The notes under the pieces: generated by a model
The model's input: the letters and a program-made list of their open reading frames with translations, nothing else
What the model was told of the DNA's origin: nothing
Databases searched by the model: none
Shown here: positions 22,142 through 33,591 of the stretch, piece by piece
How the letters are laid out: every line of letters begins with the position of its first letter
How positions within the stretch are numbered: the first letter of the stretch is position 1
Made by a program: the position numbers and the translations under genes
Source: Candidatus Altimarinota bacterium
GTDB lineage: Bacteria > Patescibacteriota > Gracilibacteria > Absconditabacterales > Absconditicoccaceae
Length of the DNA stretch: 33,591 nucleotides
Direction of reading: 5' to 3'
Assembly: GCA_027046965.1 (NCBI GenBank)
Contig: JALTWR010000028.1
Location: 1-33,591 of the forward strand

Positions 22142-22245
22142 TAATAATTATAGTTTTATCTTTAAAATCAAGAGGTGAACTTAAATATTGAAGTTAGTCT
22201 ACAAATATTTATAACACTTTTAACTATATTGTTATTTTGTATATA

Positions 22246-23355
22246 ATGTCGCTTTTGCAATTTTTGCTTATATTAGCTGCACTAGTGTTTGTATTGTTGG
22301 CAATTGATGCATACAAAAGAAAAAAGCTCAACTTGATTCATTTTTTGGTATTTTTTGTTTGAAGTGCATTACTTTTGATTTTTTCGATAAATGTGGATTG
22401 GCTAGATAGATTTGGACAATTTTTTGGAGTAGCAAGGGGTGCTGATTTGGTGGTATATATTTCTATAATTTTGTTATGATGGTTTTACTTGGAGCTGGTA
22501 AATAAAATAGTTAAAGAAGATATTACTTTTTCCAAATTTGTGACTCTAGATGCTATAGATAACTTGGTAGAATTCCGTAAAGGTAGAGATGAAGAATTTT
22601 TTAAAAATATTAAGACTACTTGATGAAATTTGGCAGACTTTTTAGTTGTTGTCAGGGCATATAATGAACAAGAAAGTATAGGAGCAGTACTTGATAAGCT
22701 TTTTGAGTATTGATTTGATAAAATTTTGGTAGTGGATGATTGAAGTGAAGATCAAACTCCAAAGATTGTAGCTCAAAAGCAAAAAAAAGCTAAGGCACTA
22801 GGGAAAGTATTACTTTTGTTATCTCATTTAGTTAACAGATGAGGAGGTGCAGCCAATAAAACTGCCTTTGAGTTTATAAAAAGATATGCAGATAAATTAG
22901 GTATTAGTTGGGTTGTGACTTTCGATGCAGATGGTCAAATGGATGTGGCAGATTTCGCAAATTTTGCAAAAGTGCTGTCAAAACAGAGCAAAGAGATTTA
23001 TTTAGGTTCTAGATTTATTCCTTGAGGTGAGGGGAAAGGGATTCCCTGGGAAAGGAAAGCAATTTTGGCGGGTAGTAGGGTTGTTACCAGAGTTTTGAAT
23101 TGAGTTAGTGTGACAGACCCTCACAATGGATATAGGGTTTTGCCTGTAGAATTTGTACAAAAAGCCCATATAACTAGTGATGGTATGGCATATGCCTCAC
23201 AGCTTTTGGAAGAGGCTCATAGATTAGGATTCAAGATTATAGAGGTACCGGTTAAAATAGAGTATACTCCTTATTCTCTTAAAAAGTGACAAAAAAATGT
23301 CAATGCTTTTAGGATATTATTGGAATTAATTTACAAAAAGTTTTTCTTTAGGTAA
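22246..23355 (+). CDS. DUF2304-glycosyltransferase family 2 fusion
   Basis: 369 residues. The N-terminal roughly 110 residues carry three membrane segments of DUF2304 type (QFFGVARGADLVVYI). The rest is a GT2 domain of the dolichyl/polyprenyl-phosphate sugar synthase type: VVRAYNEQESIG, VVDDGSEDQT (UGA glycine), NRGGGAANKTA, the metal-binding FDADGQMD and GSRF. DUF2304 genes often neighbour such transferases; here they are fused. It probably loads a sugar on a polyprenyl phosphate for cell-surface polymers, which fits the flippase gene at 26217. TATAAT overlaps the start (22242-22247), so the promoter is unclear. Confidence 0.92.
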
Positions 23356-23410: not shown

Positions 23411-23438
23411 TTGACATCAGCAATCAAAAATCTATAAT
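23411..23438 (+). promoter_or_regulatory. consensus sigma-70 promoter of the 99-residue gene
   Basis: A perfect TTGACA (23411-23416), 16-base spacer and perfect TATAAT (23433-23438). It is the best promoter in the window. Confidence 0.8.
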
Positions 23439-23446
23439 CTCAAGCA

Positions 23447-23463
23447 CCTCGGAATCACCGAGG
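23447..23463 (+). promoter_or_regulatory. hairpin in the 5' leader of the 99-residue gene
   Basis: CCTCGG (23447-23452) pairs with CCGAGG (23458-23463) around a five-base loop. It lies at the predicted transcript start and directly precedes the purine-rich ribosome-binding region (23463-23476). It could protect the 5' end or modulate translation. Confidence 0.5.
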
Positions 23464-23481
23464 AGAAAGGAGAGAGTGGTG

Positions 23482-23781
23482 ATGAACCAGGAGATGTGGG
23501 ACAAGTTAGTTACTCTTGTTGGTGAGCAAGCAGCTGAAGAGGTCAGAGAAATTTATAACAATCATGGGGGGACAACTCGAAAAGGTTTGGAGGAGCTATT
23601 AGAATTTTGCCCCAAAGATCGTTTAATAGGTCGGGCGGAAGCTAAGGGGGGACGCCTGCTATTCGGTGCTCCTTTTGGGGAGAGTGGGGGGCGGTGGATT
23701 ATTGATTCTGCAAAAGGAACATTGACTTATGAGCATGATTCAGGGGAAGAGAAAAAGTGGCCCCTATCGCAGCTATCATAA
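23482..23781 (+). CDS. 99-residue soluble protein in a GC-rich stand-alone cassette
   Basis: Begins MNQEMWDKLVTLVGEQ, an amphipathic helix, then a Gly-rich beta-like half (RLIGRAEAKGGRLLFGAP, SGGRWIID) and a short acidic/basic tail. I do not recognise it. All 13 glycines use GGN codons, none UGA, and the gene is visibly more GC-rich (GGG, GCC, CGC codons) than its neighbours. A good Shine-Dalgarno (AAAGGAGAG, nine bases before ATG) is present, unlike most genes here; GTG codons at 23476 and 23479 are alternative starts. It has its own promoter, leader hairpin and terminator. Either acquisition from a standard-code donor or strong selection for expression would explain this. Confidence 0.8.
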   Translation: MNQEMWDKLVTLVGEQAAEEVREIYNNHGGTTRKGLEELLEFCPKDRLIGRAEAKGGRLLFGAPFGESGGRWIIDSAKGTLTYEHDSGEEKKWPLSQLS

Positions 23782-23789
23782 ACAACTAT

Positions 23790-23815
23790 AACCCCACGGT
23801 TATCCGTGGGGTTTG
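23790..23815 (+). terminator. terminator of the 99-residue gene
   Basis: A ten-base-pair stem with CCCCACGG (23792-23799) opposite CCGTGGGG (23804-23811), extended by two A-T pairs, and a four-base loop. Only a short T run follows (23812-23814). It lies eight bases after the stop. On the minus strand it is also downstream of korB. Confidence 0.65.
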
Positions 23816-23855: not shown

Positions 23856-24447
<592 letters not shown>

Positions 24448-24458
<11 letters not shown>

Positions 24459-31971: not shown

Positions 31972-31999
31972 TTGACTTTTTGTGTTATGTAATTATATT
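31972..31999 (+). promoter_or_regulatory. sigma-70 promoter of the 65-residue gene
   Basis: TTGACT (31972-31977), 16-base spacer and TATATT (31994-31999), starting ten bases after the DUF192 stop. Confidence 0.65.
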
Positions 32000-32018
32000 G
32001 TGGTCGGAGGTGATTGTC

Positions 32019-32216
32019 ATGAGTAGGGAGAAGCTTTGGTGGATGATGGTCGTTTTTGGTGTTTTGGGATTGGTGGTGCTTTCTGTGCCTGAGTGGCAAG
32101 AAGATTTTTTAAACTCTTTTGGTGTGTGGGTCCCCCGGATTTGGGGGATCCTTGTGGCGGTTACTGTTATCGGATTGTGGCGGCTTAGGCCGCCACGGAA
32201 TCACGAGGGACCTTAA
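32019..32216 (+). CDS. 65-residue two-helix membrane protein in a GC-rich cassette
   Basis: Two hydrophobic helices (about 7-23 and 41-56) separated by an acidic loop (PEWQEDFLNS) form a membrane hairpin with a basic C-terminus. It has a GGAGG Shine-Dalgarno eight bases before ATG 32019, six glycines and no UGA, and GC-rich codons (GTG, CGG, CCG). It carries its own promoter and terminator. Small two-helix proteins include holins, toxins and regulatory peptides; the sequence does not choose between them, and I do not recognise it. Confidence 0.75.
   Translation: MSREKLWWMMVVFGVLGLVVLSVPEWQEDFLNSFGVWVPRIWGILVAVTVIGLWRLRPPRNHEGP
32177..32196 (+). other. strong hairpin inside the 65-residue gene
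   Basis: GTGGCGGC pairs perfectly with GCCGCCAC around a four-base loop, within the last third of the coding sequence and before the terminator. No T run follows, so it is not a terminator. It may slow decay or translation. Confidence 0.5.
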
Positions 32217-32234
32217 GCAGTTTATATTTATAAT

Positions 32235-32262
32235 GGGAGGGTTTACCCTCCCATTTTTCTTT
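32235..32262 (+). terminator. rho-independent terminator of the 65-residue gene
   Basis: GGGAGGG (32235-32241) pairs with CCCTCCC (32246-32252) around TTTA, followed by ATTTTTCTTT. Confidence 0.85.
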
Positions 32263-32447: not shown

Positions 32448-33591
32448 TTATTTTACATATTTGATTCAATCATTATATCGCTCTTCACCTTCTATCAACT
32501 CAACCTTATCTGGATCTCAATTTAACTCTAAGTCCATTTTTTGTGCCAATTCTTTTATATATTCATCAAAGATTTTATCAATAGGTGCTCCTACATTTCC
32601 TTTGTAATACATAGGGTATCTAGATATTTTTTTATCATTTCCAATTGTAACTAAAACTCTTCATAATATATTTCATTTTTCATCTGTAATATAAAATACT
32701 CATTTGTTAACATCAATGGCGTTTGTTATTGCTGACCAATAGTTTCATACGGGAGAATAATAACTTAAACAACTTCAATTAACCCAGTTTCACATCATTA
32801 AAATCTTTAATGGATCTGTTTCTTTGTAAATTATGATTTTTTTTGCCTTTTTGGATTTTCTTTGTTTTAATAATTCTCTTATAGAGTCTATTTGTAATTT
32901 AAGATCCTCATATAGATTTTCATTTTTCCCTCTAATTTCTTGTTCTTTCTTTTTTATCACTTTATCAAAGTATGATACAAGTTCTCATCATTTACTCCAT
33001 TCTGTTTGGAAATTATATCATAAATTGTTTATCTCCTGTATCTTGTTCATGGCCACTTGTATGTGATGATTTATACGAGATTCTATATTATCTTCTTTTT
33101 CTCCTTCTTCTTCATTTAATGTTATTTCTTTTTGGTTTTTTGATAGCCATATTTGTTGTTGTTCTGGTGTCAAATGTGTTTCTAACCATTTTTTATTAGC
33201 AGGAGTATTATATTGATTCAAATTTTCTGGTGATAATGGGTTATCGAATTCTCACTTAAGATACTTGATTAGCAATTTATTTATTTGCCTTTCATTGTAC
33301 CCTGGGTTTCTTGACATTTTAAACGCTTCTATGAACAATGGATCTATCTTTTGGCTTCTTAATTGTTTTGGATTCACGCTAATACCCAATTCCCTCATTT
33401 TTTTATTTATTTCTGAGACCACTTTGGTTATTAATTTTTTATCATACAATCTATCAAAGTATTTTATTAATGCATCTACTAGCTCATTTTCTAATCAGCT
33501 TATATTATTATTTTCTATATATCTATCAAAGCTACTTAATTTTTTCTTTATTAACCCTTCTTTTGTTCAAAGTATCCTTAATATTTTACTG
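32448..33591 (-). CDS. unrecognised protein, 5' end cut by the window
   Basis: About 380 residues are visible with many UGA glycines, open to the end of the window and ending in TAA at 32448-32450. The N-terminal half is helical and charged (KMSRNPGYNERQ, a Gln-rich HLTPEQQQIWL, an acidic EEEGEKEDN, and coiled-coil-like KVIKKKEQEIRGKNENL). The C-terminal 110 residues form a distinct domain: WVNGSCLSYYSP, YWSAITNAIDVNKGVFYI, KGNILGRVLVTI. The order (SCL, Ala-rich helix, NK, strand, G-x-I-x-GR) recalls a C-terminal module seen in large bacterial proteins of unknown function, which I cannot name with certainty. No nuclease or kinase motif is visible. Confidence 0.85.

Follow-up and report, generated by a model that had tools for sequence, protein, structure and literature searches.

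Decoding UGA as glycine has been proposed to cut bacteria off from gene flow, and bacteria that lost their anti-Shine-Dalgarno (anti-SD) sequence should handle foreign leaders poorly. The locus described here raises the question of how a compact, GC-rich gene with a strong Shine-Dalgarno (SD) sequence and no UGA glycine came to lie in such a genome. The window, by which we mean the whole 33.6-kb stretch of DNA that was analyzed, is contig C28 of the 855-kb genome G000, which uses code 25 (UGA = glycine) and whose assembly is fragmented into 32 contigs. The gene, here called mini-gene 1, is very likely a single-gene transcription unit acquired from a standard-code, SD-using bacterium or its phage. 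The case for a foreign origin is made by composition and signals rather than by phylogeny.

Anatomy and setting of mini-gene 1

Mini-gene 1 and its signals fill the 500 bp that separate two convergent native genes, both of which are rich in UGA glycines. The features of the locus are as follows.

22237..23355 (+): upstream native gene, glycosyltransferase family 2 / DUF2304, with 10 UGA glycines
23411..23438 (+): sigma-70 type promoter TTGACA-N16-TATAAT, 12/12 match
23447..23463 (+): leader hairpin CCTCGG-AATCA-CCGAGG
23466..23472 (+): SD sequence AAAGGAG, 9 nt before the ATG
23471-23476 (+): AGAGAG after the SD, which could pair with the altered host 16S tail CUCUCU
23482..23781 (+): mini-gene 1 open reading frame, 99 aa, ATG at 23482 and TAA at 23779-23781
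23790..23813: terminator hairpin AACCCCACGG-TTAT-CCGTGGGGTT with a 10-bp stem
23856..24458 (-): downstream native gene, 2-oxoacid:ferredoxin oxidoreductase beta (TPP enzyme C), convergent, with 9 UGA glycines

The initial annotation placed a promoter, a leader hairpin, a strong SD, a 99-residue gene and a terminator within about 400 bases. All of these elements are present, the one reservation being the terminator, whose plus-strand T tail is weak (short and interrupted) and which the terminator scan scores on the minus strand instead; the hairpin may serve the convergent downstream gene as well. The perfect promoter by itself is no foreign mark. Eight perfect sigma-70 type promoters were found in 241 kb of sequence, compared with about 0.7 expected from base composition alone, and native genes carry them too.

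Composition and start signals against the host background

Composition and codon use of mini-gene 1 were compared with a native reference set of 157 genes from 201 kb of G000. The GC content of mini-gene 1 is 47.5% vs. 33.3 ± 2.4% for the native genes (maximum 39.6%), about 6 s.d. above their mean, which bears out the high GC content first ascribed to it and places it above all 157 native genes. The GC3 value of 0.41 is about 4.6 s.d. above the native value (0.26 ± 0.03), and the codon score has a z of -3.75. All 13 glycines are encoded by GGN codons, as had been noted from the sequence, and seven of these are GGG, a codon that accounts for 12% of glycines genome-wide. By relative dinucleotide signature, the 377-bp unit does not stand out, a point against foreign origin. 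G-rich runs were considered as well and proved to be common in native genes.

The absence of UGA, which had been read as a sign of arrival, is real, but it is a weak sign alone because EF-Tu uses UGA for none of its 35 glycines and the UGA share in ribosomal-protein genes is 19%. The probability of finding no UGA among 13 glycines is 0.007 at the genome-wide share of 32% and 0.07 at the ribosomal-protein share.

The strongest evidence for acquisition of mini-gene 1 is its foreign translation signal. AGGAG at -20 to -4 was found in none of the 198 first-ATG native genes. Native genes instead carry, at -23 to -20, a T-rich box that is enriched in TTTAA and that may be the native initiation signal of G000; EF-Tu and the ribosomal operon have the same start pattern as other native genes, without an SD. 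Pairing with the canonical anti-SD averaged -1.5 kcal/mol across 466 G000 genes vs. -8.7 kcal/mol for the leader of mini-gene 1. The tail of the G000 16S rRNA, GACCATCTCTCTAA (3' end given as ...GGATAGACCATCTCTCTAATT), does not contain the CCUCC anti-SD. The AAAGGAG of mini-gene 1 is thus foreign to a genome whose genes have no SD and whose 16S tail has no CCUCC. The CCUCC-less tails agree with a published survey that placed Absconditabacteria (SR1) among the SD-scarce organisms without CCUCC (PMC10783764).

The leader of mini-gene 1 also contains GAGAGAG, whose pairing with the host tail CUCUCUC (-10.2 kcal/mol) is stronger than that of any of the 466 native leaders. The SD of mini-gene 1 may therefore be partly adapted to the host, or the match may be luck. 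The anti-SD region of 16S 3' ends was also seen to differ between genera within the one family. Among the family 16S tails that were read (L072-L101), CCUCC is kept only in L074, and the remaining tails differ from one another (CACCTCTC, CACCATTC, CACCACCC and so on).

These measurements bear on a second reading in the initial annotation, namely that the gene is highly expressed and subject to different codon selection. According to this explanation, mini-gene 1 would be a native, lineage-specific gene from which strong selection for expression removed UGA and in which it raised GC content. The perfect promoter is consistent with such a gene, as are the lack of UGA in EF-Tu, whose GC content is 40%, and the reduced UGA share of the ribosomal-protein genes. 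However, GC3 of EF-Tu and the ribosomal genes mostly lies near 0.2-0.35, GGT and GGA are favored over GGG (EF-Tu has 24 GGT, 7 GGA and 4 GGG), these genes have no SD, the GC content of mini-gene 1 exceeds that of every native gene first measured, and no orthologue was found in the genome samples searched. Codon selection for expression fits the absence of UGA in mini-gene 1, but it fits neither its GC3 nor its SD nor its preference for GGG; it is disfavored because EF-Tu prefers GGT and has no SD, and because selection alone leaves GC content, GGG and SD unexplained together. We consider it improbable. Acquisition from a standard-code genome, which had been proposed as a recent arrival, is supported by the SD, the CCUCC-less 16S rRNA, the absence of orthologues from the family, class and phylum samples and the recurrence of such inserts described below.

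The encoded protein and the recurrence of similar units

The 99-aa protein had been called unrecognised, and the searches concur. No homologue beyond chance was detected in 49 family, 353 class and 380 phylum genomes, in the domain and protein libraries (Pfam, PHROGs, NCBIfam, PADLOC), among PDB sequences and plasmids, or in 50,697 phage records, IMG/VR scans (three peptide sets) and GTDB species genomes. The leader pattern was absent from the viral and genome collections searched, and orthologues at the same locus in relatives, which were looked for specifically, were not seen in the family, class or phylum samples. The flanking glycosyltransferase and KorB genes are not adjacent in the family genomes examined, a sample without a second genome of the genus. 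Two candidate relatives were rejected: the match to L002 is a 14-residue match by chance, and a blastn match to a Neptuniibacter plasmid spans the terminator only. In fold searches, neither PDB nor viral matches reached E <= 0.001, and the best VIA fold comparison (Z 4.3) was under the informative level.

Single-sequence AlphaFold prediction gave a pLDDT of 76.4 for the 99-aa protein vs. 38.8 for a 91-codon antisense open reading frame in the same window, and the predicted fold has three helices and four strands. The model suggests a small soluble helix-plus-sheet protein. This confidence relative to the antisense control also bears on the possibility that the element is a structured non-coding RNA, GC-rich in an AT-rich genome, whose open reading frame is coincidental. 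In keeping with an RNA, the remaining GC-rich tiles of 300 bp in the first sample were RNase P and an unassigned hairpin-rich element, and the minus strand of mini-gene 1 has a folding z of -3.0. The plus strand, however, has a z of only -1.6, no Rfam match exceeded the gathering score, the SD spacing is correct, and a stop-free frame of this length arose in only 0.3-0.6% of dinucleotide shuffles (p = 0.003-0.006). We regard a non-coding RNA as extremely improbable. Mini-gene 1 most likely encodes a real, folded protein rather than an RNA, in agreement with the Rfam and RNA-folding results.

A second unit with the same organization, mini-gene 2, is present in the window and, like mini-gene 1, sits between convergent genes.

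31972..31999 (+): promoter-like TTGACT-N16-TATATT, 10/12 match
32006..32014 (+): extended SD GGAGGTGAT, 9-nt perfect
32019..32216 (+): mini-gene 2 open reading frame, 65 aa, 0 UGA and 6 GGN glycines, GC 51%
32232..32255 (+): strong terminator with a T run

The extended SD GGAGGTGAT is complementary throughout to the canonical 16S end AUCACCUCC, with a duplex energy of -17.0 kcal/mol. The product is probably a small membrane protein. The class search gave one weak match for it, in G037 (33% over 49 residues, E 4e-4); this match (L147, G037:C1:5009-5158) lies inside a 207-aa open frame. The gene at 32448-33449 (-), which adjoins mini-gene 2 and the contig end, has a weak match (E 8e-5, below the cut-off) to LPD37, a polyvalent-protein domain of mobile elements.

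Similar units were sought by screening for SD-bearing, TGA-free, GC-rich open reading frames. The screen covered 682 kb (about 80%) of G000, as separate stretches, and 480 kb of the relative G002, a single 1.13-Mb contig with 27.5% GC in which UGA encodes 74% of glycines. The following inserts were detected.

L117:18322-18624: third GC-rich, TGA-free insert of G000 (contig C26), 100 aa, with a terminator
L127:13243-13635: cytochrome c insert, G002
L128:11625-12467 (-): dapD insert, G002
L132:2332-2718 (-): pilin-like protein insert, G002
L135:14147-14587: lipoprotein insert, G002
L135:16480-16593 (-): 37-aa peptide insert, G002

The L117 insert lies directly 3' of a folB gene (L117:18234-18371) truncated after about 36 residues, and, since its first ATG lacks a clear SD, this insert is the least certain member. 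Each of the five G002 inserts has an SD, a terminator and GGN glycines only. The G002 dapD has a GC content of 59% and 71% identity to E. coli DapD; judged by sequence, it is of the gammaproteobacterial type, with its closest homologue in a distant lineage. The gene has a TGA at its end, and its product would be extended, the terminal TGA being read as glycine under code 25. In G001, of which 240 kb was sampled, no such inserts were found. Mini-gene 1 is one of a recurring kind of unit in G000 and G002.

This recurrence bears on whether mini-gene 1 is an artefact of assembly, with 400 bp of another community member joined into the contig. The G000 assembly is fragmented, and one of its contig ends (L121:7964-8203) holds a tRNA gene and an inverted partial copy of it in a palindromic arrangement of the artefact type. 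However, mini-gene 1 is flanked on either side by native sequence within one contig, its limits are those of a complete transcription unit, and G002, a genome in a single contig, shows the same pattern. A chimera is therefore very improbable in our estimation.

Insert limits, possible sources and known systems

The limits of seven units were estimated by a change-point fit of GC content. In mini-gene 1, mini-gene 2 and the 37-aa peptide unit, the 5' step falls where the -10 box ends; it is 1-6 bases off that position in the dapD, lipoprotein and cytochrome c units and is at the SD in the pilin unit. The 3' step coincides with the terminator hairpin in five of the seven. At -120 to -41, GC content is 53-57% upstream of E. 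coli dapD vs. 10-15% upstream of the G002 dapD, and therefore the insert promoters lie in AT-rich, host-like DNA. Steps near the -10 end in six of seven units, steps at the terminator in five of seven and the host-like upstream DNA would be compatible with inserts that match transcripts and not arbitrary pieces of DNA, and so with capture of mRNA, in which foreign messages would have been reverse transcribed and placed downstream of host-like promoters. Because the promoter boxes are AT-rich, the fit cannot tell whether a boundary lies at the transcription start or shortly before the -35 box, and much the same picture would be expected from a donor promoter that was AT-rich or from drift of the promoter region towards host composition. 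Capture of a host promoter may likewise account for the steps. We consider mRNA capture improbable.

Another potential donor is a phage, either one with the standard code or one compatible with it, in which case mini-gene 1 would be a leftover moron. Phage morons are single coding regions with their own promoter and terminator that lie between two genes and deviate in composition (PMC4378225). Mini-gene 1 resembles them in being one open reading frame with its own promoter and terminator and a composition unlike that of its neighbors, and the small orphan products, including that of mini-gene 2, which resembles a small membrane protein, are in keeping with a moron. Predicted phages of Gracilibacteria and Absconditabacteria include code-11-compatible ones (PMC10746230), and the inserts are likewise standard-code genes without in-frame TGA, readable under code 25. 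Unlike morons, however, mini-gene 1 is chromosomal, lies between metabolic genes outside any phage or prophage context, and resides in a host that uses a different code and lacks an anti-SD. Unlike the code-11-compatible phages, the inserts are isolated single genes rather than phage genomes, and the phage records, IMG/VR scans and PHROGs contained no homologue. The recognisable G002 inserts are cellular genes (dapD, cytochrome c and pilin-like). A leftover moron is unlikely.

For acquisition from a standard-code, SD-using donor, the anatomy, the foreign composition and signals, the lack of a homologue in the collections searched and the recurrence of such units are observed, and we infer the donor type, the route of DNA uptake, transcription, translation and the status of the product as a passenger. 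The unit would have entered the gap between the two convergent native genes, disturbing neither, and would have brought its own promoter, leader, SD, open reading frame and terminator, as a phage moron does. In the related Vampirococcus, ComEC/ComEA and type IV pili have been proposed to function in the uptake of host DNA (PMC8080830). Mini-gene 1 reads alike under code 25 because its frame has no TGA and its stop is TAA, and its transcription would be expected because the sigma-70-type promoter consensus of the host is identical. A canonical SD:anti-SD helix would be impossible in this host, and translation would proceed either without SD guidance or by pairing of GAGAGAG with the tail CUCUCU, whether that match arose by chance or was selected. 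Most likely the product is a passenger that is neutral or of slight benefit to the host.

That these bacteria acquire genes is already known. Vampirococcus, a member of the Absconditabacteria, has 126 acquired genes that were traced by gene phylogenies (PMC8080830). As in that organism, foreign genes were gained here by a recoded, probably predatory CPR bacterium; unlike the Vampirococcus genes, the inserts are complete units with legible foreign translation signals and are mostly without homologues. As far as we checked, what is new is that both marks can still be read and that complete single-gene units recur. Standard-code units with intact SD sequences in two recoded genomes indicate that uptake from standard-code donors continues. 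The combination of no UGA with an SD in an SD-less genome offers a practical filter for recent arrivals in Absconditabacteria and Gracilibacteria, one that works even for orphan proteins beyond the reach of phylogeny. The inserts also are natural test genes for transcription, for translation and for whether a foreign SD is helpful, neutral or mispairing.

Two GC-rich intergenic elements were observed elsewhere in G000, at L041:15970-16225 (contig C2) and L102:2931-3240 (contig C11). Neither had an Rfam match. Both contain long inverted repeats, e.g., GTCGGCACCCAGGG...CCCTGGGTGCCGAC, and they are possibly undescribed structured RNAs of the lineage.
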